From positions 3,973,001 through 4,037,000 of the forward strand of contig JAGUCH010000008.1 in the NCBI GenBank assembly GCA_019096065.1: 64,000 nt of DNA. The letters run 5' to 3'. The notes under the pieces were generated by a model. That model made no database searches and was not told where the DNA came from. It saw only the letters and a program-made list of their open reading frames with translations. The stretch is from Paracyclopina nana (taxonomy: Eukaryota; Arthropoda; Copepoda; Cyclopoida; Cyclopettidae). Shown piece by piece: positions 2,512 to 40,600 of this stretch (position 1 is the stretch's first letter; the number at the start of each line of letters is the position of its first letter). A program made the translations under genes and the position numbers.

Positions 2512-5500
2512 TTACAGTATTTTGGTGGGGCTAAAAAACGCCTTGGGGCCATCGTAGAAGCTCTGCAAGAGTCCAGGCGATGGCCTATTAGATTTGCTGG
2601 CATGATTTTTGCCCATATGCCTTCCCAATTCTGCCATGGTGGCAAAACTCTTTGGGCAGAAGCTGCAGCCCATTTTGGACTGCTGAGATGACTCAGCCTG
2701 GCCCAGGAGCTCAGCAATGCTGTACCTAGAGGTGGGCGAAGACATGGGTGAGGTGGATGACGAATGGGAGTCCGAGGCTTTCTCTTCAGCAGGAGTCCCT
2801 TGGTGGTGAGCTTGCACCAGGTGCTTTTTGAGGCTGACTTGCCTTTTGAAGGATTTGGAGCAAAGCTCACAATTGAAGCTCCTGTCTTCGTGGTCATCAT
2901 TGTTGTTGTCCTCCTCGTCAGAGTTGTTGTTGTTGTACTTTTCGGTCTCGTTGTTGTTGTTGTTGATGTTGGTGCTGTGCAGCGGTGGTCTGGGTTTGTG
3001 CCACCGTCGATGCGATGCGAGATTTGCGGGACAATTGAAGACTTTGTCACACTCAGGGCATCTGTATTCCACGTGGACAATCATGGAGCATCTGCCGGGG
3101 GAGACATTACATATATCCCAACGAGAAGTTTGAGCAAAAAATCGGTAAATAATCGGGAAGTAATCGAGTATAGATACACTCCCCTTAAAGTTCTTTTTTA
3201 GGGTGCAATTCGGTGATGGAAATCATTGTTGAGATACTGTATAGTTAACTTAAAGTTATTGATATTAGTTCCCTAATACTTCTCTTAAACTTCTTTACTC
3301 AAAGTTCTCTTATACTTCTTTATATTTCAGGTATGCCAAGATACGCCAATGAACTTGATATACAAGAACCGACCGATAAGTGTTTTTCTCATCGATGTTT
3401 CGAAGAGTTTTCTCTAACGACAATACTCTGATGTGTTTCCGAATTTAATTACTGACTCATGCTTTAAAAATTAATGTTTAATAGGACCTGAATAGAACCA
3501 ATACTGTTATCGAAAATGTATCCACGATTGTTTAATGAACTATTCCTGATTGTAGGTCCTATAATCTTACTGATCATTTTCTGAATAGAACCTACGAAAT
3601 CCTCTTTTACTTTTTCTAGACAATAGGTCTCAAAAAGCTACCGTTCTTTTGCTGTTTTGTATCTATTGTTAATCTATGATAACTTTCCATTAATTTGTTG
3701 ATGATAACTACCCGATCTCTTACTTTTTTAATTTAATGATAACTTCACTAAAAGTTGTCGAATCATTGTAAAATAAGGTATTTTATTACTGTAACCTTTT
3801 AAAACATAGTACTTGATTAATCATTGATAGTACCTCGATTCATGATGAGTATTGGTAAAAAAAATGCTCAATTAAAACAATTCATCGATTTTCTGTAGAG
3901 TGCTGATGACAGTGATGGTTGACTTATTCTTTCTGCACCTCTTCGTCTCCATCGCTTTCATCATCGGTTGCTTGCATACTCATTAATTTTTCCTAAAAGG
4001 ATAAAAAGGATATTAGGATTTGAATCAAATGTAGTAATGGTGCGGGCTTACAGGTGGATTTGGTTGTGCTTGACTTATGACTGATTCATGGACAGATTCA
4101 GTCACATTCATCACAGGAGGATCCTCTGGTTGTGGCTCCCTTTCCGGCTGGTCTTTTTCTGCAGCGTCAATCTTATCCATTATGATGTCTTCCTGATCAT
4201 CATTGCTTTCATTGCTGTAACGCCTGAACAACTTCCTCTTTCCAGGTTGTTCGGTCTCCTTTTTCTTGAGTGATTTTCCTCGTGTTAGAGGTGGTGACGG
4301 ATTATAGGATGAATCTTTATCAGATCGAGTGATTTCCGTAGATGTGCTCGATGGTGTTTTTGATTCGTCCGGATTATCTTTTGGTGTCATTGAATGGCCC
4401 ATGGCTCTTGCTTTTTTGATCGATTTCGATGATGTTCCGGTCGATCCTCGTTTACGTTTTCCAGTCGAAGTTGATGGAGTTGTGAACTCATCTTCAGAAT
4501 GTTCTTTTTCCTTATCATCAGGTGAAGGTGTGCTCATTGTTGATTGAAGCCACTTTTTCACAACATCTCCCATTGACACACGGATGTGCTCAATCACTAC
4601 TTGAATCTCATCAGCAGCCTAAGTTAAACTTAATAATTAACTAATCAGTTACTTTTCGTTAATGCTTACATTTGGAAGAGATTTGACTGTGTCAAAATGT
4701 AGGTTTTCAGCATTTCCACCCATCGTGCTATATGCTGATGCAATCAATTCCACTGATTCTCGAATGTTTCTGAGAGTCTGTCCCTCACGTATCTTCATGG
4801 TGTCAAAGACGTGGCCTTTTGGAGGGTAGACTTTTTTCTTGCTCTCTTTAGCACCCCTTTCTTGCAAGTCGAAGAGTGCTTGAATCGGTTTGAGCTTTTT
4901 GGTATCGATGTAGTATTGCTCATATGTGGGCTTGTCGTCCGAGATGACATGCTGAAAAGTTAACGATGAGTCACTGAACAATTACTGATTCAAAATAAAC
5001 TTACTCTATTTGCGTCGTAAAAACGACAATCCTCAGCCCACATAGCATTGATTGCCTCGTCACCAGTGCGACATGCAGCAGCAGCTCTTTTGACAAATGC
5101 AGTACGGTCACCACAAAGGGTCACCTGCATCCTGCTCGTCACCTCGGCAACATTCTTCTGGATGAGTTGATCTCGACTGTCTCCCTTAAGCTTCTTAGAT
5201 AAGTAGGGGATAACGAGAGAGTCGATAACAGCAGTGCAGAAACTTGGTATCGAGCGTTTGCACCACATCTTATTGGCAAGACCACTGAAATGTTACCGAT
5301 AAGTCACCGATTAGATGGTTATATTTTGATGTTACTTACGCTGGAGTGTCTCCAACCACCATGTGGGCGCGGCAATTCTGGGTGAATAGTTTCAGCAAAA
5401 TGGCGTTGGAAATGCCTTTGTCCAAGTCATGAACACTCACGCCATCAATTGATGGCTTCAAGTATTTCAATATCATGTCTTGAACAAATGAGTTGGCCAG

Positions 5501-8500
5501 AAAAACATCAACTGCCGGATTCAGTTGGTCAATAGGGAATACTCGGCTGATCATTTTTACTGCCAACGCTTCTTTTTCCGCCATGGTGTATCCAAGGTTG
5601 TGAATCTTTTTTTCAATCCTCTTTTGGCCGTCAATAACTCTTGCTAGTTCATTCGAAAAGTCAGCTCTCGAAGATTTCTGAAATCATAGCTATTCGTTAA
5701 TTAATCGTCTACTTTTTAATAACTATTTCTTACCTGATTTAAAGAGTAGATTGTTCCTAGCTTCGTGTTGATGTTGATGATATCCTTCTTCATCGAGTCG
5801 ATGTCCTCTTTAATGCTATTAAGAGCATCTCCATTCTCATCCTTGGCCGCTCTCCTGGCCTCATCATACATAAGATTCATCATATCGGTCATCATCTGCT
5901 TCAATTCGGTAATGCCGTCGGTGACTTTATCAGTCATTAGAGTGCCAGCTACGATCTCAGAAGGAGCCTCACTTGCTGCTCTTGTTTTGCTCCTTTCTTC
6001 CTCCTGAATCGTGGGCATTTCTGGTTGAGTCTGTCCAGAGCTCCTAGTTTTGCGACCATCGGATTTCATTGGAGGCTTGAACGGTTTCATTGTTTTTGAC
6101 TGCTTCGAGGTTGATGCCATTTCCAATGATGGAGTTACTTCACGTGAAACAATGGGAGTTGATGTTACGAGTGGCTTATTAATTAACGAAGTTGACTGAG
6201 ATCGTTGAAAAATCGGCAACCCAGTAGATGAGGTCGATGGAATGACTCTACTGAGAATTTCTGCTAATTTCTTCTCATCATCAGTTTTCGGCATAGCAAC
6301 AGTCTCCGATCTCCTCGTGACTCCAATATACTTCTGCCACTCCCACTTGTTGGTGTTCGGGTTCTTTGGAGGATAAGTGAGGTCCATGACCATCTTCTCG
6401 TAGAAGAACTCCACCATATGGCTGATGTAGAATTGATAGCGCTCGTCCTCGGTGAAGCATTTTGAAAACATCTCGTTAAGATGCTCAACCTCCGCGTCCA
6501 GTCGTTCTTTCGTCACCTCTGTAAAGTAAATAGTAATGAATCGGTAATTGTTCGAGTACTTATCGTAGACTTACTGTTTTCCACTCGGCAAAAAATGGCG
6601 ACCTTACATGGCCCTTCATTAGTGAAGAAGTCGGCTCGAAATTTCCGATTCTTGTTGCTTAAAGTTCGGTTTGGGGGAAAGTGGAACACCGTCTTTAAAT
6701 CTTTCCCACTGGCGTCATGGAAATCCACACCAATCACGGACAATGGATGAGTTCCACTCGAATCGAATACAATAACTCGATCGTAAACTCCGCCGGCAGA
6801 GGTGGTGCTGGCTTGGCTCAAGTCCTTCGGTTGCGATCCCTTAACGCTCATTATTCCACAGGCAATTTAAAAAAGGTGGACGATAAATTTTGTAAAATGT
6901 CGCCTGGCGATGTTGTTTGGCAGCTGTTGCGGTCTCTCTAGCTCAGCGCGTGATGGTAGAGTGCGCGATGACGTAGATGCAGCTAGATGCAGGTGACTCA
7001 GCAATTAATTCGGCCGGCGCCGGAAACAACAGGTGATTTGACAACAAAAAAAATTGGAGCGTGCAAGAAATTAATTTAATTTCACGAAAAATGGATAATT
7101 CGGACGGAAAAAAAGAACGTGAAAAAAAGAAGAACGAACCAAGACAACGAGCTAGATTATATCGTGAGAGGAAACGCAAAATGGCGCAGCTAAATCTTTT
7201 CTTTTCGGATAATCAATCGGAAGAGAATCAGGAGATTGTCAAGCAAAGAAAACGAGTATGCCTTGATGTTTCATCATTGTCGAAAATCGCTGACGGTGTT
7301 TGCTTGAAGAGTAGCGATTCTGAAGATGAAGTGAATGACAACCGAAAAATAGCCAATTCGAGGACATCACTTGGATTGTCACGTAGCCGAACAAATGCAA
7401 CAAGCACCGTCACCTCTGGAGCATATGAGGCGGATAATTTTGAACCAAGTATTGATATGTTTCAAACCGATTTCGGGAATAGATTGGAAACTCAAGATCA
7501 AGATGGTTTTGTTAGTCGTTTTGAGAATCCAGAAAGTCTGGACATGTTAGCGAGCCAATATCTTTGCGATTCGAGTGAGATTCGTGAACCTAAAAGTGAT
7601 CGAGGTTTTGCATTCTACATTGATGATCAATCGACAGTCAACGAAGTCATGAATGAGACATTTAGTGATCGTAATATTTCAATATATCACTCGCAGGCTT
7701 TGGAAGAGAGTGATGAGAATGATGACACGCTTAAAAAACGGGTGATGGCCCCACCAATGGTTGACAGCAGAGAAATATCTGTCATATTGTCTCAAAGTCC
7801 AGAACTAGTTCGAGAAGAACTCAGCCAGTCTGGAATTTCAATGCCAATGACAAGTGATGATGAGGTACATATAATATTTTATTTACCATTCATCTCGACC
7901 ATTCATATTAATTATCAATCATTTTTCAGACGACAACCAGTAATCAATCACCACTCGAAGAAAGTCCGAATCAGTCAATGAACGATGAAATGGCAGCTGA
8001 TTATGCAACGGGCAAATACCATCATCTCGACCCCTACAAGAAATCATTGAGAAAGGATTACACTCTGCAAGAGTTTATCAAATATTTTCAAGAGGAGGAA
8101 CTTGTCCAGGACATGCGTGAACGTGACAGAAAACTGGAAAAGATGTTCATGATTTTCTATAATCAAGTTGGCATGAAAGAGAAGCAGGCAATGTGCACTT
8201 GGTCGCTCATACAAGCCATCTTCATCCAGAAGCGTCCTAAGCTGCGTGGATTGAAAGCCATCAAAAACGAATTCTACAAAGATCTTCCAGTTATCAGGAT
8301 TGACTTTCAGTTCAAAAATCGAAAAACAAAGGAAATTGTTGATCTCAAAAACCAAACGAAGTATCCCCGAAAAAGGTACAACAAGAGGAAATACGAAATA
8401 CTTTCGGAATGGACTTACACCACTCTCGAAGAGATCTACAAGTTCCACCTTAAAGTGCATGAAAAAGAAATTACAACTGCACCATTCCATGTTGACTTTG

Positions 8501-11500
8501 ACCTAAGTGTCGATGGAGTGCCCGTCACAGTCTCTGGTATTGACAAAGTAAACGTGGTTTGTGTGCGATTCCAAGATTGCGCAAAGAATGTTTACGTTTA
8601 TGGGATGCACAAATATAGGTATGAATCATGAATTGTTCGTTGACATATCGTTTACTTTTATTTATAATCAGGAAAGGAACAAATCAATGCATTTCAAGAC
8701 TGATAAGCATTCTTATCGATGAGGCTATTAGCAAAGGATTCAATCTTGGAGTCTTGATCGCAGATGCTCCAATGAGATCGCTTCTCAAATGCCTAAAAGG
8801 CCATTCTGGTTTTTGTAGCTGCGATGTCTGCTACGCAGTTGGCGAAAACGATACAACCACTAAGAAGAAGGAGGATCATGATGAGAATCAGGGAAACTTC
8901 AAGAAGCAATCGAGAACTCTAGAAGTGAAAAAAAAGAATGTTGTCTATCCTGCAAAGACAGTACAATACAAAAAGAGGACACACGCAGAGTGGTTAGACG
9001 CAGTGAAATACATCAATGAACATGATGGAAACTTCTCAGATGGAAAGACATTTGGCGTTAAAGGAGAATCAGAGTTCCTTAGGTTACCTGACTTTGACAT
9101 TGTGAGGGATTGTCCACAGGAACCTATGCACCTGATCTCCTTAGGTGTCGCACGAGCTCTGATTTATCTGATGTTGGACTATAAGGGATCTTCTGAGCTT
9201 CCGCAGAGAATTCATTCAATACTTGAAAAGTAAACGATATATTACTGATTCATAAAGATATACATTGTAAGCATTATAAATTTTAATTACAGATTCGATG
9301 AAATCTGGACTGAGACAAGGTTGCCGTCTGAGTTTTCCCGAAAACCACGTGAATTGGCCAAACATCTGAAACATCTAAAAGCAGAAGAATTTTTAGCAAT
9401 CACCAGTGTGGCATTTTTGCACTGGGCGGAGGTTTTCAGTGGTCCCAGGTATGACGATCATCGGCGATTATTCATTACTTTCGGATATCTGGTAAAGGCA
9501 GCGTTACTGGGAGAAAAAATGTTCAAAATGTTCCTCGAATTAGTGAATCATCAGGCATTGCACGTGGAATGGTACACTTTATTTGAAAAAGTGTTCACAA
9601 AATCACGTTGCACATTTAACATTCATGCTTTTTCGCATCTTTGGGAGACAAGATTGATGTATTCGTTGGATGACATCTCGGCAGAAACATTTGAGGATTG
9701 TTACGGACACCTCCTATTTCATCTACGAAATAACACCGATTCGTATTGCAAGCAATCTATGGAGAAATCGTTCATTAGAAATATGAGAGAGCATCATTGT
9801 CGCAGAACAGTCAGAATCACACCACGCGAAGGCCGAAAAGACTCTGATGATTCAATGATTTTTGCAGACGACTTTGAATTTTATGAAGTCGTCGATGATG
9901 ACATTTGGTGCTACAAATGTTACAAAATTAAGACAAGTAGGTACACATCTCGAGATGCACCTGGATTAGACTTTGAGGCCATTGGTGTCAGGAAATTTGA
10001 AGGAGTAATCAAATCAACGGAATTAAAAGAAATACCAAAACCTCATGTGATTGGAAAGGCAGTTGTTATTGGCAATATCATCAATTCTATATCATTTCAA
10101 ACATTGTATATGTAACTGATTCAGCCATGAATAAACAAGTTGTCAGTAACTCAAAAAAAAAAGGTGCGAACTCAGTGCTGAACTATACACGATTAGAATG
10201 AGTAAAAGCAAGGATAATATAATCATTAAAGTATCATATACGATTATTTACTTTTTTTAATTAATGATAACTTACTGATTCATCAAGAACTTTAAATAAC
10301 TGAATATTACATTGAAAATAAGTCACCGTAAAATTTACAAAAAAATGTTGCTGATTCATTAATGATATAACTACGAACAAATGGTGAAAAATCAAGGCTA
10401 AAAAAATCGGTTATTAATCATTTATGAAAATAGAATATCTTTGCATTAATGCAAATTTACTGATTCATCGAGAAATTTAAATGACTGAATACTACCCAAA
10501 AAATAAGTCAATGATAAGTTACTGAATAATAAGGAAACTTACGTTAACAATAATTAACCGAGCAATCGATAATTAAATAGTTCCTTAGTAATCGGTAATA
10601 TTCCATATATTTAAAGTTATTGATTGCTGAATCAATGAAAAGTTATTGAATGTTCGTGAACTTTAAATTAAAGAATAGTTAACGACTAAAAGTAACCATA
10701 AAGTTACTTATGGGTCAGTGATATATCATTAATGAAAAGTTAACGATCCTAAAGTTCTCGAGAATTCAGTAAAAGTTCAGTCACTAATAAATTACCGAAA
10801 AGCAAATTCTGACAAATCGGTAAATGTTCGGTAATGAATCGTCGACCAAACTTCTCGTTGGGATTATTATCATGTTGTTGACTACTGAAGCCTTGCAAAA
10901 ATTCCCCTTTCGTTATACTGTACGCGAGAAGTAAATAGTTTATCCTCCCATCGCGCATAAAATCTGGTCTTGACGTGTTATTCAGCGAGCACTTCATCTG
11001 CATACTGCTCGTGCTCTATTAACGAATTTGGGTGATGACATTTTCGTACGACCTCGGAGAGTGGAGGGTTTTTTTTCGGGAAACTCGCAGTCACTTTAGA
11101 AATTGTGGATTATTCAGTGATAGTCAGTGAAATGCCAGCGCAACCGCAAATGAAAAAAGCAGTGGGAAGAAGAAGTGGTCTAAACGACAGCCATGCAATG
11201 AATTGTAGAAATGTCAACGCAGTGAGAACTGGGATGACATTTTTGCAGTGGCAAGAAGACGGCTCGAAATGAGGTCGGTTGGGAACGAAGAAGGCCAGAC
11301 TCGAGACTTGCACGCAAAAAAGCAGAAAAAATGCAAGTGGATGGCGCCACGATAATTGTCAGCTGTCCGGACAATTGAATACTTTGGCATGCTATGTGCC
11401 CTTCATTAGACTGACAGCAGGAGTAACGCAATATCAATAGAAAATAGCACAGAGCTAAAAATTGCTATGAACCCCTTTAGCTGAGCGGAAACTCATTAAA

Positions 11501-12743
11501 AAGAGAGGGAAGAACTCATTTGGTGAAAGTTCTATGTACAAGTCGTGCGAAAGTATTCTACATTTTCATTTTCGTGCCTTTCTTTCTCGCCTTCTTGGAA
11601 TCATTCTCAATTCGCGCTTAATAATGCATTCTACAGCTACTACACACACAATTCGACAAAGCTACACAGCATTCGCATGTGCTAGCGTACCGCTATTCTG
11701 ACGTCGACCATAGGAACTTTGACGGATCGAGGAGAGCATGAATTAATCAGCTCGCTGGTTATTTCAACTCACCTATGCTGGGCGAGTCCAAATGCATCCG
11801 GATACACCTCTTTGCACAGTCGGCAGCAATAATCCCCGATTTTGTTCTCGATTTTCGCCAACTCCGCCTTGGCCTCTTCAGTGACCTCGACCACATTAAA
11901 TTCGGGCGGGATATCACCTACGCGAAAAAATAGGGATTTCAATTTTCAATACGAAAATAAATGAATGGAAAGTGCATCATACCTTTTCTGATTGCAGGAA
12001 CCTCCTCGCCTTCGGCTAATTCCCGGATTATGGTTCCAGAAACTGGAGATGTTTTGTCCTCGTCAAAGGCCAACTTCCGCGAAGCCTTTCTCCTTGGCGT
12101 TGCCGTTCCCCCTCCGTGGCTGCTCACTTTGACCTTTTTGGCTGATGACGAGGTTGGCGTGCCATTGCTATGCCTTTTGAGAGGTGAGGTTGCGGAGCGT
12201 TTGTAGGAGAACGGCGGCGATCCGAGGCCGCTGTTCTTCAGCGAGAGGTCAACTCCGGATGCCACCATTGGAAGTGGATCCGCAGAATTGGGAGAAGACG
12301 AGCTGGCCGCAGCAGCCGCTGCTCTTGCAGCGAAGAACTGGTATGGATTTAGCAGAATGGGGGATAACGGACCGCTATCATTGGGTACAGGAGCAGCTGC
12401 TTGTTGCTGCTGCTGCTGAATGTAGAAATTCTGCAAGGCCTGGAGGGTGGCCAGTCGCGAAAACGCCTCCTTGCATATTCTATACCTATATGAATTATTA
12501 AAGAGTCTGATCAAATGCCCAGAATAATTTTTGAGCGGCCAATTACCTTTCATAGTCAGCTTCACTGTGAAGTCGGGCTGAGTAGGCTTCCATTAAGTGG
12601 TTGTGCGGGCTGAGGAAGAGTGGCGACGAGTGCGTCATGGGACTGGAAGATGTCGTCTCTGGCACCCTGTGGTCATCCTCAGACTCGCCCACGTCGATGA
12701 TTTCCTCCTCTGAATCCCTCGACATGGCAATGGATCTCTTCAT
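2512..12743 (-). CDS. nerfin-1: INSM/Nerfin-1-like C2H2 zinc finger transcription factor
   Basis: Coding exons on the minus strand are 12743-12547, 12485-11983, 11917-11773 and 3091-2512, joining in frame to 474 aa. The third exon gives finger 1 (CCRLC at about residues 264-268, H281). The AGA codon for R282 is split by the last intron and C283 follows. Finger 2 starts at about residue 293 and contains CPANLASHRRWHKPR, the signature of INSM1/Nerfin/EGL-46. Two more C2H2 fingers follow (CELCSKSFKRQVSLKKH and CSFCPKSFATMAELGRH). Low-complexity Gln, Ala and Asn runs lie between. Family members are nuclear factors that drive neuronal or neuroendocrine differentiation and axon guidance; that role is inferred from homology. 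The start at 12743 is the first ATG I can support. Many INSM proteins begin with a SNAG motif, so a small upstream exon may be missing. The last intron contains the 7.75-kb transposon. Confidence 0.88.
3115..3132 (+). repeat. left terminal inverted repeat of the transposon
   Basis: Eighteen bases identical to the reverse complement of 10847-10864. Preceded by TAT at 3112-3114. Confidence 0.92.
3133..3923. repeat. left subterminal region of the transposon
   Basis: AT-rich, no ORF. Short words such as cggtaa, agttaac, aagttat and aagttct recur, and the same words appear in the right subterminal region. CACTA-group transposases typically bind such subterminal arrays; that role is inferred here. 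Confidence 0.55.
3924..6851 (-). CDS. second protein of the transposon, 865 aa, family not recognised
   Basis: Exons on the minus strand: 6851-6575, 6518-5734, 5677-5340, 5284-5005, 4951-4670, 4618-4052 and 3992-3924. Every donor is GTAAG-like, every acceptor follows a short pyrimidine tract, introns are 51-59 nt, and the model closes in frame at a TAA (3926-3924). The N-terminal part (about residues 1-170) is compact and mixed. About 200-350 is Ser/Thr-rich and likely disordered, with a short coiled-coil-like stretch ending it (SIKEDIDSMKKDIININTKL). About 350-660 is again compact (for example RTAFVKRAAAACRTGDEAI). The tail is Ser/Lys/acidic and looks nuclear. It is divergently transcribed from the transposase and shares its 239-bp intergenic region. 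Two-gene CACTA elements usually pair a catalytic protein with a DNA-binding helper; that is the inferred role. I see no catalytic motif or zinc ligand pattern. Confidence 0.8.
6852..7090. promoter_or_regulatory. shared divergent promoter region of the transposon
   Basis: The 239 bp between the two divergent start codons (ATG at 6851 minus and 7091 plus) must hold both promoters and 5' leaders. It contains a GC-rich block (ggccggcgccgg, about 7012-7023) in an otherwise AT-rich element, and an ATGACGT word near 6968. No TATA box is obvious. Confidence 0.6.
7091..10115 (+). CDS. EnSpm/CACTA-like DDE transposase, 947 aa
   Basis: Exons 7091-7864, 7930-8618, 8672-9229 and 9293-10115 join in frame; introns are 65, 53 and 63 nt with GT-AG ends. 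The N-terminal 260 residues are charged and Ser-rich. The catalytic core shows an SVDGVPV block (Asp at about residue 453) and an IADAP block (Asp at about 519), followed by KGHSGFCSCDVC and later QEPMHLISLGVARALI. This order matches the tnp2/KDZ-type transposases of animal CACTA-like elements, which cut and paste their own DNA by DDE chemistry. The C-terminal part (PRELAKHLKHLKAEEF ... NIHAFSHLWETR) matches the helical tail of the same family. The third acidic residue was not identified. No frameshift or internal stop is present, so the enzyme could be functional. The start is the first ATG of the open frame. Confidence 0.88.
10116..10846. repeat. right subterminal region of the transposon
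   Basis: AT-rich, no ORF. A word close to tactgattcatc recurs (near 10271, 10350 and 10457), with repeated agttaacga, aagttactga and tcggtaat words also seen in the left arm. The irregular spacing is typical of subterminal transposase-binding arrays (inference). Confidence 0.55.
10847..10864 (-). repeat. right terminal inverted repeat of the transposon
   Basis: Reverse complement identical over 18 bases to 3115-3132. Followed by TAT at 10865-10867. Confidence 0.92.
10868..11770. other. remaining intron sequence of the zinc finger gene
   Basis: The donor-side part of the host intron, between the transposon and the donor at 11772-11771. I see no exon or repeat structure. Without the transposon the intron would be about 930 bp. 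Confidence 0.6.
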
Positions 12744-27856: not shown

Positions 27857-30800
27857 GTTCCTCTTGCAACTGGATCGTCATTCCCATATCCGGATTCGTT
27901 TTAGCCCCAAATCTTATCAGCATATCGAGCTTGCACTTGGCGGGCATCAATTCACTTTGAAATGCCATGGCAACGTGAGTCATGAGCACTCGGCGGAAAA
28001 CAATTTCACTGCAGCATCACAGTTGAAAATTGCGGAATGCATTTGGGGAAGGCCTCCTTTGTTTTCCAAGGCCAGCCAAGGAGCAGTCCTGATAAATATG
28101 ACAGGCACTGTGGCACAAGGCAATTTTGTGGGGGGCTCTTTCTCGACTCTTGCCTCCATCATCTCCAGCACCACAAGGGACCTATCAATGTTCTCAGAGG
28201 TGGCGGCTGCAAGCCAGCAGTAGCCACTTCCAAAAACCTTTCTTCATCAAGCGCAATCTCGTCAATAGAACATGATTGGGCAGTCTCCTTCAATTCTTAG
28301 TGCCATTGAGGGAGGCATATCAATTTGCATATTTCTTCTTATTCATTTGCTACATTGACTTATTGTAAAATCACACATATTTGGTCAATTTGGCCAATTT
28401 GAGTAGGTGAAGATGCAAAGCTGATCATCATTAGTTATGGCCTCGATTTGCAGTAGCCATTCGAATGCAATGCGGAATCGCTGCATAGTATTGCGTAAAA
28501 GAAATGGGTAAATAGCTAGGCCTATATGCATATTGCAGCACAAGTCCTCCAGTCACTATAGCATAAAAGGGATTTTCTCAATCGAACTTACTGTCCGTAG
28601 AGTGCGATTTTATGGCCTTCTGGAAGCTGATTCATGAAATAGCAGAGTGACTAAAATTGCAAATATTGGGCTGCTACGAATGAAGTTGTGACATCATCGC
28701 CAATGCTCTTTGATGATGGCAAAAAGAGGTGCATGTTTTGTCCTTGACTGCTCGCACGGCTGCTTTCAACTTTATTAAATTCATGAAACATAATATGCTA
28801 GGAGTCATAGTAGTTTTACTGCCTTGACAAAATAATTCTCGCGTAGTTGCATATATGCAGAGAGGTAATTATGCAAAGTACACATCACCTTAGAAGATTA
28901 GTCAGGCCGGGAGCGAATGCTATCTCATTCAAGGGGACAAAAGCACCCATGCATCGAACTAAGCTTAGGGCTTATTCATTCCCACTATTACTACTTCATA
29001 CGCTACGTAGCACAAAAAAGCCAAGGTCAACGACTAAGGCTAGATTCGTAAAATAAGTGGACATGTTTTGCCCCCCCTCGGCCCTCTAGCCGAGTGAAAT
29101 GGTTTGGGCTTGTACAATTAGATATGGATCTATTTACCCTGTGCGCCAAAGGTAATAATAATGCCACTCCTCCTCAGTTCCCCCTAATATAATAATAGTG
29201 TGCACGGTCATGGCTTGAAAATGTATTTCACTACTGCGTAGCGCATGCAGAAAGCCGTTCTAATGTATTTTTTGACCACGCAATGATCCCTTTTTTCGGT
29301 AGTATTTGCTCCTGCGCATTTCCGTAAGTGTTGGAAAATACTCCCATTTCTATGATTGTTTCAGCTAAAAAATACTTGTTATAACCAGATTAATTTGAGC
29401 GATCCGCTAAATGAATTATGTACTATGCTATAGTGAAAGCTGAGATTGGGCTGAGCGCTTACGAAAATGGACAAGTATACCATGACTTGACTGATGACTT
29501 GCAATTTTGAGCTAAGTGAGTGAGAATGTGCAACATAATTTGTTTTGAGGCTCAGACCACACCACCGTTTTGGCATGATTTATATGCTCAGCCGAAGAAA
29601 AAATACCATCTTTAGCTTCAACGAGCACACGGTGACAAATTGTTAGCTGCTTACATTTGGCTTGTGAAAGCAGCAGCAAAAATGGAAAGTTTCACAGAAA
29701 ATGAATGGCTCAACTTTCGGTAGAGTTGCGACTACTTCAACGTTGATGCTAGTGGCAAAATTCGCGCACCATTCATTGTATTTGCCACAAAGCCGCAAAA
29801 TTGTGCATTTTTCCTGCCCACTGTCAATACTGCTTCAAGCACACACATTGCTGCGGTTTGAGAATAATGCGTATAGTTTATACAAAAACCAAAGCGATTA
29901 TGCTAAATTTGTGAGCCTTGACACATCAGCAGCAGCCGTAATTACATTCACCAAGAAAGCCCTCATTAACGCGGTCGTTCTTGCCCCCTTTTGTCACATT
30001 ACGCAAGTTACTACACCAGCAGTTGGCAGTAAAAGAGGACAATCATCCTGTTATCCTTCTTCTAAGGCAGCAATCAAAGTCCTATTCAGAAAGATGCTTA
30101 TGTAATTCCTATTTTTCAGGGGCTTCATTTTTGCAGCATGTGCGTAACAGTAAATCAAGTGCTTCTTTTCGTTGAGTGCAAAAGTGGACTTGTATATATC
30201 CCAGCCAGGCAGATGATCGAGCCCAAGGCGGCCATAAAAAAACTGCTGCTGTGACCTTGACTGTCTGAAATTAGCGCGGCTACAACTAAGCTATATAGCT
30301 GCAGGTGCTGTACACTCTAAGTAAAAAAGTTGCTGTGGTCCAATCAAAGCTTTCTTTTGACATGGCCTCGGAATGTCGTCAATTAGAGGCTGATACTTGG
30401 TCTCATCAGGAGTTTTGAGGTGGGGCGCAAGATCAAGATCGTGTACTTCGGCGGTGCGCGAGCTAGCAGTGCCTGGGTAAAAATGGCTCTGAAAAAAGCA
30501 CGTTCTCCGTCGAAGTTTCCTCTGCTCCTCATGGCATGCCACAGGGCTTTCTCTTCACCAAAGTGAAAGCCGCCATGAGGGAGAGAATCCAACGCGCGCG
30601 CTTCTTCCCCTCTTCTTGGCTCGAGGATCCATCAAGGTCCGAAACTTGGCACAAAACCAAATACACAGCAACCTTGAAATCTTTGGCACACAGGCCATGA
30701 ACAATTCATGAGCTAAATGCATGAGAAAGCTGTTTAGATGTTCTCTTGCATAAGCACGCTCTGTATTAAGCTCAAGAATAAAAATGCATCAGTTTCCATA

Positions 30801-31632
30801 TCCCTATCAAATGCATATGACAACAGGGTTCCCCCATCTATTGATATGAGATGCATTATTCAGGAGAATTCTTACATTACATCCAAGCCCAAGGGATTGA
30901 AGAGCGGAAGTGCTTATTATGGCCGAGCCCAAAGGTTTCGAGTCACACAGGCTTCATTGATAGAAAGGTGGTTGGCTGGCTGTTCGGGGAAGGCCGTAGG
31001 AAAAGCAAGCATTCGGCCTGTTGAGGCAAAAATGTAAGCTAGTGCACCGACAGCCTTGGTAGAAAGGTGGGAAAAGGCCATGGTGAGCCTTCATGGCTTT
31101 CTCATGGAAAGTAAACCAGGAGAGCAGCAGTAGGAGCTAAGCAAGCAGCAAGGCTCATCAAACCCAGTTCCTCCTGCCGACGACAAGAAAGTAGGCATCG
31201 ACCGATCAAAAAGCCTATTGCTAAACTTCCTGACCTAATCATCGCTGAACGCGAGTGAATTGCGGTCAATTGGCCTCAGAAAAGAAGCCTCAATTCTCCA
31301 ATACCGATTTTATTCAGGATATTCAGTCCATGGCTAGTCCACACACATGGAGGACGACATGCCAAAGAAAGGCCGCTATAGCTGCCAGTAGTTGAACAGG
31401 AATCACTGGCTGATCAAGATCTCCTAAGTAAACAAGCACTTGTCATCAACCAATCATGCCCAGAACGAGGATGACAGCAAAAACGACGCCTACCAGCAGC
31501 CAAGCAGCAGAATGAGACAAACGATAAATATGAATAGGTAAGGTACACAAGCTCGTAAAAGCAATTGGGCAAAGTTACTACTTGCCGCTAATTGGATTTC
31601 AGCAGCAGCAGTAGGCGGTGGTGACCATAATA
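27857..31632. other. intergenic region upstream of neurexin and of the Fas3-like gene
   Basis: About 3.8 kb between two divergently transcribed genes. I find no coding exon. It should contain both promoters; no TATA or clear initiator stands out. Confidence 0.4.
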
Positions 31633-34600
31633 ATGCTGAAGTATCTCCCGATCTTCTTGTGGTTTTGGGCGGCCTTGGAGGCCACAGTGACGACCACGGC
31701 CTTCGTGTTCGAAGGTTCGCAAACATCCTACGCCCAATTCCGACAATGGCACGGCGGAGTGAACGATTCGCTGTCCTTTGAATTCACCACAGCCTCGAGA
31801 GATGCGTTGCTTCTCTATAGTGACAATCGCGAGGCTGGCGAATACCTGCAGATAAAACTGTTTCGTGGTCTAGTGATGCTCAGGTAGAATTCCCGCAATT
31901 TGTTTTCCCCTTGAATACAGCAATAATAATTCTTTGCTATTGCAGATATAATTGGGGCCGTGGCGGCCAAATCATCAACCTGCCTGTTGAGGCCAGTCAG
32001 ACGTGGCACAAAGTGATAGTAATAAAATCAGAGGCCGAGACGACGCTGGTCGTCGACCGGTCTCAGCAGACTTTACGGTCCAACGGCAAAGGCCACAAGG
32101 CCAAGCAGTTCGGACCGAGGAAGGACAGTGACAGTCTGGCCTTCGGTGACATTTCCTCCAATGGCTATGTGTTCGTGGGCGGCCTTCCCTCGTGGTATTC
32201 GGAGAAAATGGACTCGGTCGTATTGCCCACGACCTTGCTGGAGCCGAGGTTGCGTGGATCCGTCCGAAACCTGAAGTACCGTGACGCCAAAAGCCAAGTA
32301 CAGCGGGAGCAGGAAATGATGGCTTACAAGGTAAGAATATGTATGCAGCGCATGGAAATGGGCAAAATTTGACTTTTATTACATTTGTGGCTGGAGCCTC
32401 CCTTTCAACATCAAAGGCAGACTCCTGCTGCAGCCGAGAGGAAACAAAAACCCAGCTCTGTATTTTTTGTTGTTGTTGTTGTCAAGGAGGAGACGAAAAA
32501 ATTAGGTCTTTCATGGTCAGGGGGACTTGAATTGGAGCCAAAAGTAGCCATAAATATTAGATGATTTGGAACGCTGGAGATAAGCTAGAGAGGAGTAGAA
32601 AATAGGCCATAAATATTTGGTAGGTAAAGATGCTGCGGCAATGCTCAGTTATTTCTTCCGATACGGTTTGTTTTGTTTCTCAGCTACTATTTATTTAGCT
32701 CGTACCATTGTAGTACGTGGGATATGTGAAAATTCTTGCTTCATGCTTCTTCAAGCAACGAAGGTTCTATTGATGAACCCGGTCCATTTTGGGGGGGCTA
32801 GTTAATCTTCGTAGGATTAGCGTACTGCTGAGAGGCTGTGTATTGGATTTATGCTTGATGTTATATTATTGACTTTTGCCCATGGACTCGCCCCCATAAT
32901 TACTATACACTACATTCAAAGTGAATGCATTTCTAAGCAGTTTACCTGCAACGACGTGCCAAAATATTCAATCGACAATTTGGCTTTGGTGCAACGTCGA
33001 TAATGCAGTTCTGCAGTAACAGCACCGGGCCATTTACCTTTTCAGCTAAATATTTGCGTAGCAATTACAATTTTACGCTATTGAGGGCCAGTGTAGCAGG
33101 GACACCCGATATACTGCTCCATAACGAGCTCCTCTCGTCGTCGTCGTGGTTTTCTGTGCTGTGGGACATGCCAAGCTCTATAGAGTATATATTCTAGCAG
33201 ACTTTCTCACTTTTTCTGCTCCTTCCCCAACCACCTCGAACAACAACAATGTCCTTGTCCCTGCTTTTGAGGCGCAAGTTTTTCGCTTAAACACATCCAA
33301 TATTGGATATTGCACTACTTTTGGCCTTGTTTATTTCGACCTCATCTCGGTACAAAAGCTATGCTAGCTGCTACGATTGTGATGAGGCAGAAAAGCTACT
33401 CTACTTGTTTTTTACCAACGCAGAAAAGTGTACCAAATATGTGTTGTATATAAAAAAGGAAGAAGTATAGAGAGAAGAAAACTTGGCCTCTTGTGAAAAA
33501 CTGCAAAGTTTGCTCACCATCTTCCTGAACTTAAGTCCCTTATCATCACGAAGATCTACTCTCTCTCTCGTTTTTGGCCTACGGAGGAGAAGGCTTTAAA
33601 AAATGTTCCTTCTATTTTCAGGGCGTTCGATCAAGCTCAGTAGACGCCTGTGCTCACAGCAATCCTTGCAAAAACGGAGGAGAATGCATTGCCACAGATA
33701 ATGGGGCGGTCTGTGATTGCAGCAAAGTGCCATTCAAGGGCCTACTTTGCCAAGAAGGTGAGCAAAGCTCAAATTCAGTTTAGATTGTAGTATATGACGA
33801 CTTTTCACCAATATCGGATTATTGACTCAAATGTCTGACTCTGCGGATTTAGAGCATGCAAAAAAGGAAGGATCTAATCTGAAGGCTAGAGAAAGCAGCT
33901 CGGTTTTACATAATGCTAAAATCTTCCGAAACAGGCACAAGGTATATAAATCCGATGCGAGGGGAAAATTTGCATTCTCATACCTTGATGTGTGACATAA
34001 TTGTACTCTGACAGAAAGCATTATTTGTCAGGGCAAGTGAAAGCTCATCAGTATTCTACTATGCAGTAAATAATGAAGATGCCTTCATTTCCTCTGACCT
34101 GCTTTGCCAGTTACATACTTGTTGGATATATCTAGGCTATTCATCAATACCTCACAGAATAAATAATTCTTTTATTTTTTGCTGCTCTGAAAGATAAGAA
34201 AGAAGTGTGTTAGTATAGCCATGAGTTGAGATAAAAGCCTCCTCCGCCCATTTTTCTCGCAAATTCCAGTCACGTAATCGTGAATTTTCCATCGTTTTTT
34301 CACCTCGAAGGTCCGAAAAGTCTTCTTGCTGGATTCTAGAATCACTCAGCTAGTTTGACCTTGGACGAGAGTTTCAGGCATGTAAAACAATGCACCACTC
34401 TCGACCGGATTTAACAATGGGAGGGCAACAAAATAAGCAAACAGCCTATTCATTTTGTCAATAAACAGCTAGAATTGTGTTGCTCGTACATGTCATATGA
34501 GTGTGTAGGCAATAAAGTGCGACATTTTTTAGCTCCTAATCACGGTCGTGAAAGGAAAGATATTTTTCACTTGCAGACCAGGCCTCTGGCAGTAATTTCT

Positions 34601-37600
34601 AGCTATTGATACTTGTTTTTAATCAAACTTTCCTTGAGTGCTGCTTGTCATTTCGGTTCTGCAAACACAAATGCACTCTTTATCAAAGTAAAAAAGGGGG
34701 ACGTGTTAGAACGTAGGTAAAGGAGGAGTGCCCCAAAAGTGCATTTCTCCGAGTCGATGTCAAGAGAAGGAAAGTTTTTTAATAAGGCTCAGTCCTTAGT
34801 TAATGCTGGTTTATTGTGCAATATCATCTTGGATGAAAAATGTTAATAAAGAGAAAGATCAGAAAGCCCAAAGTAAGCCTAACATCAATCATCTTTAGAA
34901 AATCCTCCACCTGAGGCCACCTTCCGAGGAACAGAATACATCACCTATGATCTTCAGCAGAGGTCCCTTGAGCCCATTTTGTCGACCAACGACGAAATTT
35001 CGTTGTACTTCAAAACGCGAAAGTCATCTGGCCTACTTTTCTACACAGGTAAGTGTGCGATCACGAGCGTTTCAAGTTACTCCACCCTTGAATTATTGAT
35101 AAAAATAGAAACCTAGCCAACCCAACAAACAAGAGCTCTCATGTACTAAAGTTGACCGTCACAAGTTGTATTGGCAAACTTTTCTACTAATCTACTTATG
35201 GCAGTTATGGCCAGGTTAGCCTCCAATCAATGCAATAGGGAACAACTAATGGAGTTTTTAACTGCTTTGTATGAATATACTATCATCATCTCCTCGTGGG
35301 TGAAATCATTTCATATTTGAAGTATAGAGCCTATGAAAGGGGAGAGATGAAAGGGAATCAGAGATGAGCTGCTTACGCTGAAAATTCCAAGCAAAAGCTG
35401 AATTAAAAGCTAGCTGGTTGCATTTCAAGTTCAAAGCAACAAACAGATAAAAAACATTCCCTAATTAAGCCAGTCAGGCTTACTTTTAAAGCAAATAGGC
35501 CATGCAATAAAGGTTGTAGTTGTCTCTTGTGCTACACCTAGCAAATACTTCAAGTTAGACGCAAAATACACTTTGAAATGTTTGTGTGTATAGGCAATGG
35601 GCTTGACTACATGAATTTGGCCCTGCAAGACGGTGGAGTTGCTTTGACAGTTCAGCTCGGCATTGGAAAGCTTGACACTCAGATAAAGACAGAGTCGGTG
35701 AGGTTCGATGACAACGAATGGCACCATGTTTTGGTGGCCCGAGAGTCGTCCAAGGTAAGCATATAATCAATGTATACATGCAGCAAACCACTTTGAAGGG
35801 GCAATGGATCTGAACGAAAATTAGCAGAAATAAGCAACATTTTTCAGGCCTATTGCCACTTCACAGTGGAATATCCTCCTTTTCATGTTCCAAATTATAT
35901 TTGGTGTACTATGGAAGCTATCATTACATTTGTGATACAATTAAGGAAAGGGGCAAAGTTTAGACGCGCGTTCTTGACATTTTGCTGCCCAATTTTTCAG
36001 ACTTCTCAATCAGACACAGAAACCAGCTGTCAAGTAAGTAGTAAATCAAAGAAAGACAGAGAGAGTGGATGATGACGTTTACAACTCAATCGACTCAGTT
36101 GCAAAAAGAACAATTTACTAGACCTGCATCATCCTTCTTTTTTTAAAGAAACAACTCCTTTTTATTTCCGTTCACTGCTTTCTTAATTTACTAGGCTTCA
36201 TATTCTTTGGTGGCTTCTGCAAAAAGGCACATGGAAAAAAAATAAAAAAATATCTTGAGACTGAGTGTGTACTTGTGTGTGTTTTATCAATGCCTTTTTG
36301 CAGCTAGCCAAATTAGCCCTCCCGGCCCTGTGACAACTATCATGCTAGTTAGGACACAAAAAGCACATCATTTTTCAATCATTTCTGAATGTTGTTATGA
36401 CTGTACATTTCACCCTAATTTTGGAACTGAGCAAGATCATGATTGATGCAGAAGAGACACTCACACCACATCATGACTTTCATTTCATCACTAACTGAGA
36501 GGTCATTCTCATTGCTAATTTCTTTTCCACTTCTCTATAAATGCTACCTAGCTAAAAAGCAAGAGAAGAAACTCTGCTGCATAAAAAGTGCACAAAATGC
36601 CACTCAATTATGCTTTTACCTTCCATCAGAGCTGCTTGCCAGCCCCTGAAGTAGCAAGAATAATTTTAAGCTAAATAGGAGAAAACGCAAAAAAGGAAGG
36701 AATTGTATTATTCAAGCCACGAACTTGACCATAGCAAACCTTAGAAAAAAACAAGCTAGGGTCACGCGCATTTTTCTGCACCATCTGTCAAGAAGTTTGT
36801 TTCCAAAACGGGCAAACTTCTCTCAATAATACAATTTTTCCTGTTGGCCGAGGCGAAGCCTAATTTGGCGCGACCTAACTTTCACACTACTATATAGGCT
36901 AGCTCTCACAATATTTGAAGCTGCAAATTTGACCTCATCTTTGACATGGCAGCAATGCCTAAAAATCAACCTAAATATGTACTTCTGCGAATGCAAAACC
37001 ATGAATGCATAGCCTGTGTTGTTACTTTTTGTGATCGTTATTTATTGCGAGATTGCATCCCTTTGTCAGTGAACAACTCATCAGTGCGGATATTGCAACA
37101 TAGAGAGCTACACGAGCACATATATTCGTCAACGACATGTGTATACTATCTATGTTGATCATCTTAATTAGGATACTAATCCCGCCCTTGTAGTAGATAC
37201 TACCTGCCCTTTATTATGTCTGCGTACTACGTACTACATATGAGGACTGAATACTACTTCATATGCGAGCAATCTGTTTAGCTGCCACACGCACCAGGCT
37301 AATTTTGTAGAGGATAATCTACTTACAATTTAACTACCAAACGCTTCGTACTCCCTCATAAGCACCCTAGTTTGCCCGCTGGCCAGCAGTAAAATATGAC
37401 AAGATGTATCCGAATACAGAAGAGCTCTGTAATCCGAGGTTAAAAACGTATTCTTGGTGGAGTTGCGTAAGCCAGCTCGTATTTCTCAACTTCCGCGTCC
37501 AGGATTTGATATTGAGACGCAAGCACTATCGTTCACAATTACCATTAATGCTCTAAGTGTGCTTATCTAAATATTGGCCATGGGCATTCTGGTCAAGAGC

Positions 37601-40600
37601 CCTTCCTTCCGTCAGATTTCGTAAGAGTAGCAGCAACAGTGTGCACTGATGAAAAAGGTCGCTAAAAGTTGTCGCAGTTTTGCCCGTTTTCTCATGACCC
37701 TCGCGAGACCATTCATCATTGCGATGCTTGAGAACGAGATTACGAGGCTCCTCTTGTTGTGCTTCCACTGCAACTTGGACCAAATTGTAGCAAGCCTCTT
37801 TTTCTCACACACAATCCTTCTAGGACTACAATATATGTGGTGTAATAGCAAAGTAATGTTGGAGTGCGGGCCCCATCTGCCACTATACGCACCAAGGAGG
37901 AATTTAATAGCATTACACACATATCTCTACACGCGCTCATGGGCAGCCAAAGTGTGGTGGTGGCCATTTTCACTTTGAGTCCCATTTTGCACGAGGCCGG
38001 ATGCACTTTTTGTTGCACTATGCCACAATTTTAATCAAGCTACAATATTACAGCAGCAGCAGCAACATGATTTATCCCTGCGCAAAGTTTTCTAGTCGAT
38101 CACTTCTTGCCAAGACACATTACTTTTTAGCACTTGACTACCATGATGGGAAAAAGTTCTGCGATATGGAGTGCACTTGAGCCATGCTTGCACCGCTAAA
38201 TAGCTAGTGCTGTATTTTATAGATTTTGTGCACTCGACCTTGGTTGGGATGGAAGAAGTAGAGCTACTTCTTCTATCTTCATCGAAATGAGGCTAAGGCA
38301 GAGTAGCAAAGTTTTAAGCATTCCAGTTGAGTTCACGAGGCTGACAATTTTGTCTAGTGTGTCCAGAGGGGCTCCTTCTTTACCAGGTAAAGTAATGAAG
38401 GCATACACTTTTTCTTCTTGTTGCAAGTACCATTACAAAAGTCGTGTGGCGCGTGCATTCATACTGAGATACTTCCATGCTTCGATACTATTGTAGTAAT
38501 GAAAGCCTGGAAAATCTTCAGGGATTGTTGCAACTTACACCCGCAGGAATCTACCTTCCAGTGTACTTATTGCATTTGTGTGGTACTACTCGTCTTCTTC
38601 TTCTTCTTCATCCATGGAATGAACACAAAAGCAGGCTCGACCAATCTTCGGTTAGCGGCCCTGTCACCACTTATCAAGATCCAGTCACGGAAATGCAATT
38701 CCAAAGCGTTCATGACATTTGACGTGACGTTCAGGTCTTTAGTAATTAGGAGTAGCGCAAGAGGATTTTTTGCTCGATACCTACAGAAGCATCTTTTACC
38801 AGTAATGCTTCTCGCGTTTTCCCACCGAAAATTATGCAGTTGGGTATCTTTTTTTCTAATGCCCCTAATGAAGTTGCGAGGGGATGGGAAAGCAGCAGGG
38901 GCAACAAGAACAGAGGTAATTTGCCATCCTCGACAGGCATTGACATTTTACTAGATACAACTGTATTTACTGGTGTATCATATTAGCCATTATAAGCTGC
39001 TTTCACTTCCCATTATTTATGGACTATCGACTATTGTCTTCCACCGATACCAAATTACTCAGCAAAGACAGCGCTGCATTTGACTGTAAGAGTGCACCTC
39101 GCATGAAACACCATTTTTGGCCCATGAAAGGAAAAGTTAGATGTAGGGCATAACTTCTCCTCACGAAATGTACAGCCTAAAAATAGATTTGAGGTAGTGG
39201 CGTAACAATCATCAGGCTTGCACTCCATTTCTTGCAAAAATAAATAAATCGCTGAAAAGGATCAAACGACATCTTTTTTTCCTTTCCTTCAAAAGCTCTC
39301 CTTGTGCTTTTTCTCACTTAGCCATGGGCCAAAAAGAGACCCTATCACCACAGCTACTACTTACTACTTCTTCGTCATGAGAATAAAAAAGTTGCTACAT
39401 TAAGCACTCACCAAGTATTTTCCAGCTACTTGCGAGAATTATTTTTGGCCGTCCTTGTACTTGTCTAACGATATCATGGCTGCAAAACCACTATTCCTAA
39501 TAAATCATGCTCATGGTGACAACTTTGTCTCTTCGTTATTAGGTGACTTTGACGGTCGATGGCACGTACACTGAAAGATGGATGGGCTCGGGTGGCTTCT
39601 CCTTTCTGGCCTCCAACACAGCCTTTGTGGGAGGATCCGAGGCCACGTACAGCCTGCCTGGAACCAAAACCAACAACAACCTCGTTGGATGTCTGAAAAA
39701 GGTACGGGCTGCGCACTTTGCTACTAATCATAAATCGTCGTGAGGTGGAGGGAAGAAGAAGGCGAAAGCTTAAGTTCCCTCATGTTTCAGTTGGATTTGT
39801 TTCTCCAGCTGAGCAAATCCCATTTTATGAGCAATTTCGAAGGGGGGAAGCATAAAAGGTTGCTCTGAAGGCTTCCATGAGGCCACCAGGGACTTCATGG
39901 AGAGTGAGAGAAAGCTCAGCCTCCACTGAAAGGCAGCAGCAGCCTTAGCAGCTTCTCATGCTCTATTGACCTTGCCTTGTTTGTTGCCACATCTCTTTTC
40001 CCGGCCATAGACGGCTGCTGCCCTCCTACCTTTACTTACCCTCTAGCTCGCAGTCTTTGTCACCCTTGGCCTTGAAGGCCAGCTTGCCAGAGCATTTTGC
40101 GCAAATTTGCATAAGGCTTTTATGGCAAAAGCTCGTTCTCATACCTACCAGGCCTGGTTTCTCAAAACTGATATAAGGTCACTGGTGTGGACTTTACATG
40201 TGATTGATTGCAGGTGATTTACCGAGCTGACAGTCTCGTCCTGGACTTCCTCAAGCTGGCCCAGGATGGCAATCCGCTCTTTTCTGTCATTGGCGAGCTC
40301 GAATGGAAATGTCAGGACATTGGGCCAGGAAATCCGCTGGCCTTCAAGTCCGATGAGAACTACATGGTAGGAACCAAGTATTCACAGATATTTTCTTTGT
40401 AGTTGCACAATTGTAAGTAACCCTTTGTTGTGTACTAATTCCATATCTCAGCAGGCGCCGTATCACGTGGCCCAGAAGGAACAAGGTGGAGTTATATCCT
40501 TCACACGCGAAGAAGCTTTCCTGGTAACCTTCTTCATCTTGCAGCTGCAATTCCATTAATGAATCTACGATTTTCTCCTTGCTTTCCCTTCAAAAAATTA

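Follow-up and report, generated by a model that had tools for sequence, protein, structure and literature searches.

Within the CACTA/Mirage/Chapaev/Transib (CMCT) clade of DNA transposons a DD-C(2)C-H(3-4)H-E transposase signature goes along with target duplications of 2-5 bp and, in most cases, with 5'-CA..TG-3' termini (PMC12730594). In maize En/Spm, the protein TNPA binds the subterminal repeats and is required together with TNPD for transposition. Bound TNPA blocks polymerase and transcription through the Spm ends and can regulate its own activity, and TNPA and TNP1, though not alike in sequence, may have comparable tasks (PMC2613891). In addition, a bound element can block splicing (PMC4219821). 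Here we describe a two-gene transposon which occupies positions 3117-10862 (3115-10864 including the flanking AT copies) of a 64,000-nucleotide stretch of the Paracyclopina nana genome (contig JAGUCH010000008.1, positions 3,973,001 to 4,037,000; the whole stretch is referred to as the window). This element carries 11-bp-step repeats both in its subterminal regions and in the introns of its two genes. We consider it probable (roughly 0.6) that this is a CACTA-like element and that the DNA-binding protein which it encodes attaches to its introns as well, probably as a feedback.

With the CACTA/En-Spm elements (maize En/Spm, soybean Tgmt and TgmR, Antirrhinum Tam1) it shares a DDE transposase harbouring C(2)C and H(3-4)H motifs, a second protein, repeated subterminal motifs, short target duplications as well as internally deleted and short non-autonomous copies (PMC2613891, PMC4219821). 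It differs from them in its CCC..GGG ends and 2-bp duplication, compared to CACTA ends and, in soybean, a 3-bp duplication, in possessing two separate divergent genes where those elements have a single unit with alternatively spliced transcripts, and in the arrays within its introns. ENS1_Cis, an animal CACTA of Ciona savignyi, resembles it in its animal host and 2-bp target duplication, yet ends in 5'-CAC..GTG-3' (PMC6004678). Mirage, Chapaev, Transib, Plavaka, ESTA and Lanisha, compared by description, are alike in their DD-C(2)C-H(3-4)H-E signature and duplications of 2-5 bp, while their usual CA..TG ends, or TGT..ACA in PlavakaA, are both unlike those observed here (PMC12730594). Introners likewise link DNA transposons with introns (PMC9860276); in the present case, however, at least three introns predate the repeats within them, host introns having been surveyed for such repeats in this window. 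The parts of the element are as follows.

3115..3116, no strand: left copy of the AT target-site duplication
3117..3132, plus strand: left 16-bp terminal inverted repeat, CCCAACGAGAAGTTTG
3117..3923, plus strand: left subterminal region with 11-bp-step TCR repeats, 11 lag-11 pairs
3924..6851, minus strand: companion gene, 865 amino acids; exons 6851-6575, 6518-5734, 5677-5340, 5284-5005, 4951-4670, 4618-4052 and 3992-3924
6852..7090, no strand: 239-bp gap separating the divergent start codons, presumably with the promoters; 0 lag-11 pairs
7091..10115, plus strand: transposase gene, 947 amino acids; exons 7091-7864, 7930-8618, 8672-9229 and 9293-10115
10116..10862, plus strand: right subterminal region with 11-bp-step TCR repeats, 15 lag-11 pairs
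10847..10862, minus strand: right 16-bp terminal inverted repeat
10863..10864, no strand: right copy of the AT target-site duplication

Gene models and introns were predicted from sequence alone. Rebuilding the two divergent genes gave 947 codons in four exons on the plus strand and 865 codons in seven exons on the minus strand, no internal stop in either of them, and nine introns of 51-65 nt (65, 53 and 63 nt in the transposase gene; 56, 56, 55, 53, 51 and 59 nt in the companion gene), all of which are GT-AG. Codon numbers, open frames as well as number and size range of the introns agree with the initial annotation. Compared to three close relatives, the synonymous difference (pS) amounts to 0.77-0.85 for either gene while the nonsynonymous difference amounts to 0.17-0.24 for the transposase and 0.30-0.34 for the companion. 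Judged from these substitutions, both genes are under purifying selection and their synonymous sites are saturated, which argues that the function of the companion has been kept through a long divergence.

The subterminal regions carry TCG or TCA (TCR) every 11 bp within a unit close to TAATCGGTAAC. The same spacing recurs in the introns, where a lag-11 pair denotes two TCR that are 11 bp apart.

6519..6574, minus strand: companion intron 1, three TCR in 11-bp steps, antisense
5678..5733, minus strand: companion intron 2, one lag-11 pair, antisense
5285..5339, minus strand: companion intron 3, two lag-11 pairs by overlapping count (AATCGGTGACTTATCGGTAAC)
4952..5004, minus strand: companion intron 4, three lag-11 pairs, sense
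4619..4669, minus strand: companion intron 5, one lag-11 pair, antisense
3993..4051, minus strand: companion intron 6, no lag-11 pair
7865..7929, plus strand: transposase intron 1, one lag-11 pair
8619..8671, plus strand: transposase intron 2, two lag-11 pairs, sense
9230..9292, plus strand: transposase intron 3, one lag-11 pair, antisense

Altogether, the introns of the window element contain 13 lag-11 TCR pairs compared to 1.06 expected from shuffling (maximum 5 in 1000 shuffles), with at least one pair in eight of nine introns. Once defined on the window, the pattern was applied to the introns at matching places of three relatives. These introns were called automatically, seven per relative and hence 21 of 27 possible ones, whereby unclean calls were excluded and copies from overlapping loci counted once. 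They contain 35 lag-11 pairs versus 3.25 expected (maximum 10 in 1000 shuffles), and 17 of the 21 harbour a pair. The triad of companion intron 1 is present at the same place and in register in all four elements. Arrays of three TCR in step amount to 9.78 per kb in introns, 4.96 in the left end, 4.02 in the right end, 0.74 in exons and 0.04 in the remainder of the window; the latter (56 kb) contains two such arrays and no lag-11 excess. Words of the introns also occur in the ends beyond what dinucleotide shuffles yield, the observed sharing of 8-, 9- and 10-base words being reached by 8, 2 and 2 of 500 shuffles, respectively. Ten short elements bearing the same ends possess 8-35 lag-11 pairs each, as opposed to 0-4 in one measured flank apiece. 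A two-unit pattern, itself drawn from such introns, matches 15 places in the genome versus 4 for the control; the two best of these are companion introns, one in the window element and one in the C5 relative. That the spacing has been kept despite saturated synonymous sites points to selection.

By analogy, the element would move by cut-and-paste, with the transposase doing the cutting and joining. The companion would most likely be a site-specific DNA-binding partner comparable to TNPA of maize En/Spm, which might bind the tandem TAATCGGTAAC-like 11-bp units of the subterminal regions and thereby bring the ends together. As similar units sit in the introns of both genes in this clade, an abundant binding protein might coat these introns as well and thereby impede the genes of the element itself, either in transcription or in splicing, negative feedback being the likeliest role. 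More tentatively, and with odds that we would place somewhat below even, the CCC-ended two-gene lineage may have converted the introns of its genes into binding sites for the very protein that recognises its ends and thus acquired a built-in brake. If feedback of this kind operates, this would be a eukaryotic transposon with its negative feedback written in introns, where more protein leads to more blocked transcripts. Such an intronic brake would provide one answer to how eukaryotic DNA transposons limit themselves, with intron sites that can be altered without any change of protein.

Several observations weigh against this interpretation. The 239-bp divergent gap is devoid of an array and thus gives no indication of classical autoregulation at the promoter. 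Lag-11 pairs are absent from companion intron 6 and from four of the 21 introns of the relatives, and there is a single one each in transposase introns 1 and 3. Exons also display a mild lag-11 excess (20 pairs versus 6-20 at other lags). The signal in the window was discovered by looking, which renders the three relatives the fairer test; these, however, share intron ancestry with the window element and are not fully independent tests, since matching introns keep a similarity above that of shuffles (five sets compared). Furthermore, junction support in the relatives is weak at companion introns 2 and 5 (3-5 of 17 residues). At five distant loci the introns do not in general share words with the DNA outside the gene, which may miss the true ends; L071 alone does so, at 9-base words (1 of 300 shuffles reaching it). 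The introns of L068 share 9-base words with each other (10 of 300). Intronic arrays as a family-wide rule are not shown by these five loci. With regard to the companion as DNA binder, the protein has no credible domain match in Pfam, and AlphaFold models of two single companion exons reached mean predicted local distance difference test scores (pLDDT) of 42.7 and 44.1, too poor for use.

Among the alternatives, the one that survives best assigns no role in gene control to the intronic arrays, which would instead be extra binding sites that serve the assembly or compaction of the element for transposition, or protect against self-insertion, with the introns merely offering non-coding room. It agrees with the presence of arrays in ends and introns as well as in the short elements, which are non-coding, places where coding constraint is absent; yet the divergent gap and companion intron 6 are free of them, and the introns are more densely filled with arrays than the ends. 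We regard this explanation as unlikely. Far less probable is that the arrays are splicing or chromatin signals acting at the RNA level and read by proteins of the host instead of the element. While their location in short introns and the triad of companion intron 1 kept in register would suit such signals, the orientation of the arrays differs among some matching introns, which fits DNA sites better than RNA signals. Moreover, the short elements are filled with the same units and the remainder of the window lacks a lag-11 excess. Slightly less probable still is a birth of the introns from subterminal repeats, i.e. an introner-like gain inside a transposon, to which the sharing of words between introns and ends beyond shuffles and the core lying within one frame in 11 aligned relatives would conform, but which is unlikely and was rejected for companion introns 3-5 because these occur at matching positions and with identical phases (2, 0, 0), array-free, in the distant locus L074, so that there the arrays entered pre-existing introns and at least these introns came first.

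No array was found among 16 predicted introns of five distant companion loci, and intron finding in 11 distant transposase loci gave three candidates which were not used. By eye, a near-palindrome, AAAGACATAATAAGT..ACTTATGTCAATCTTT, is visible in an intron of L068, and the word TGTCAATCTTT is present in that intron and in the next one. The places matched by the two-unit pattern also revealed a repeat holding AATCGGTATCAAATCGGTGAC at 11 places on four contigs (e.g. C1:3929044).

The genome search for the ends that had been proposed along with the initial annotation was carried out with the 18-mer, allowing up to two mismatches. In the 92-Mb genome it matched 24 places, both window ends included, compared to 6 for the reversed control. 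These places yield 10 distinct paired elements with a length of 327 to 1286 bp, the remainder being single ends, repeats of those, the window ends or chance matches. At L022 and L025 second pairings without duplication were set aside while the duplication-bearing pairing at the same locus was kept. All 10 distinct pairs exhibit a 2-bp duplication directly outside CCC (AT in seven, CT in two and AG in one case). The perfect 18-bp terminal repeat described originally does exist as an inverted string, ATCCCAACGAGAAGTTTG, at both ends of the window element. The true terminal inverted repeat, however, comprises 16 bp, as direct CT..CT or AG..AG is impossible within an inverted repeat and the outer AT of the 18-mer must consequently be target DNA. 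Similarly, TAT strings do flank the element, but the duplication is a 2-bp AT, the initial T of TAT matching by chance; a 3-bp duplication occurs in 0 of the 10 paired short relatives. An 18-bp terminal repeat with TAT duplication is thus ruled out by these relatives and by a distant family, whose copies on C4 and C2 have CCCCACTAAGT ends, span about 7.75 kb and in both cases show AT directly outside CCCC. The termini observed, CCC..GGG, are indeed not CACTA, as had been noted before.

An alignment of the window transposase with 11 others, chosen for a core within one frame, reveals the putative catalytic and zinc columns D198, D264, C283, C286, H530, H534, E550 and E553 as invariant in all 12 sequences. 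In accordance with the initial assignment to CMC-like enzymes, the D, D, C(2)C, H(3)H and E columns fit the signature described in PMC12730594; which D and E are the catalytic ones may be deduced from residue order and spacing. The window element, all 10 paired short relatives and the distant family show duplications within the 2 to 5 bp of the CMCT clade, whereas their termini, CCCAAC.. in the window family and CCCCACTA.. in the distant one, deviate from 5'-CA..TG-3'. Compared to CACTA/EnSpm proper, repeated subterminal motifs are present, while CAC(TA)..(TA)GTG ends are absent and the 3-bp duplication of the soybean elements is found in 0 of 10 cases. By signature the element is thus a putative member of the CMCT clade with a presumably CACTA-like mode of working, and is not classified here as belonging to CACTA. 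Compared by description with the named CMCT lineages, it may represent an undescribed lineage, as suggested in the initial annotation. Titles and beginnings of abstracts in the open-access literature mention no such element, which is no proof of its absence from print. Pfam returned no transposase model and nothing above the curated cut-off for the two window proteins, and no transposase model was listed for the 12 aligned transposases. A search of the PDB gave no credible match. Scanning viral contigs with the transposase alignment led to 13 pattern stretches, none of which was confirmed.

A protein search of the genome with the transposase resulted in 201 matches. Counting those down to an E value of 6.2e-30, with the two matches of the window joined and one locus joined from two weaker matches added, we obtained 113 entries which merge into 110 loci, a lower bound excluding the weaker and unlisted matches. 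The genome hence contains at least 110 related transposase loci, and for 81 of the 113 stronger matches the frame is open over at least 600 amino acids and free of stops within the match. The corresponding search with the companion gave 139 matches in 121 merged loci. A divergent companion (opposite strand, upstream, within 10 kb and usually at 3-5 kb) accompanies 79 of the 110 transposase loci; a pair on the same strand occurs once and one on the far side in no case, and 31 transposase and 42 companion loci are unpaired. Two-gene CACTA-like elements have thus radiated widely within one compact genome, and many of them retain intact frames, which allows the co-evolution of transposase and companion to be studied.

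The initial annotation had considered the element young and possibly active. Recent movement in this genome follows, for this family and for other ones, from near-identical copies, although the window copy itself was not seen to move. A deleted copy on C5 is identical to the window element over 1364 + 173 bp with the middle missing. It ends within the equivalent of transposase exon 3, where it abuts other DNA, and has CT in place of AT outside CCC, only the T being in common. The copies of the distant family on C4 and C2 are 99.75% identical at both ends (1225 and 395 bp), and L072 and L073 are 99.7% identical over 3621 bp. Two distant companion gene copies, L068 (C3) and L069 (C1), agree to 100% over 2940 and 558 bp; at the join one of them is longer by about 100 bp. 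At some loci a possible second companion-like gene is located about 5-9 kb beyond the first, perhaps indicating a longer, two-companion type of element; the unpaired companion loci concerned are C1:13035494, C2:4536072, C7:4386961, C1:17728172, C4:4068527, C3:1220265 and C6:1012842. Three equally scoring transposase cores at C2:2569532, 2577843 and 2586131 follow each other at a spacing of 8.3 kb, as if an element had been tandemly triplicated.

The host gene, as originally proposed, is that of a neural transcription factor. Its product matches human INSM1 (3zms, E 3.4e-35), and the element resides in one of the introns of this INSM1 homologue.

3092..11772, minus strand: intron of the host INSM1 homologue, donor GTGAGT from 11772 downwards, acceptor AG at 3093-3092

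This intron, which interrupts a codon after GLAQH in the first zinc finger, comprises 8681 nt, or 933 nt minus the element, and 25 nt separate the element from the next host exon. Further along the plus strand (30000-49018), open frames resemble, by eye, a neurexin gene ending in EWYV. A telomere-type pattern (TTAGG/TTAGGG/TTAGGC) has 13,959 matches in the genome compared to 19 for the control; the matches listed are all TTAGG on C1, located partly less than 20 kb from either end of this contig and partly in its interior. Such TTAGG repeats suggest an arthropod, and a nematode host is disfavoured, as a nematode spliced-leader pattern had 0 matches with up to two mismatches. Distant from the contig ends, at C1:13052919-13055364, internal TTAGG blocks lie about 0.7-0.9 kb apart.

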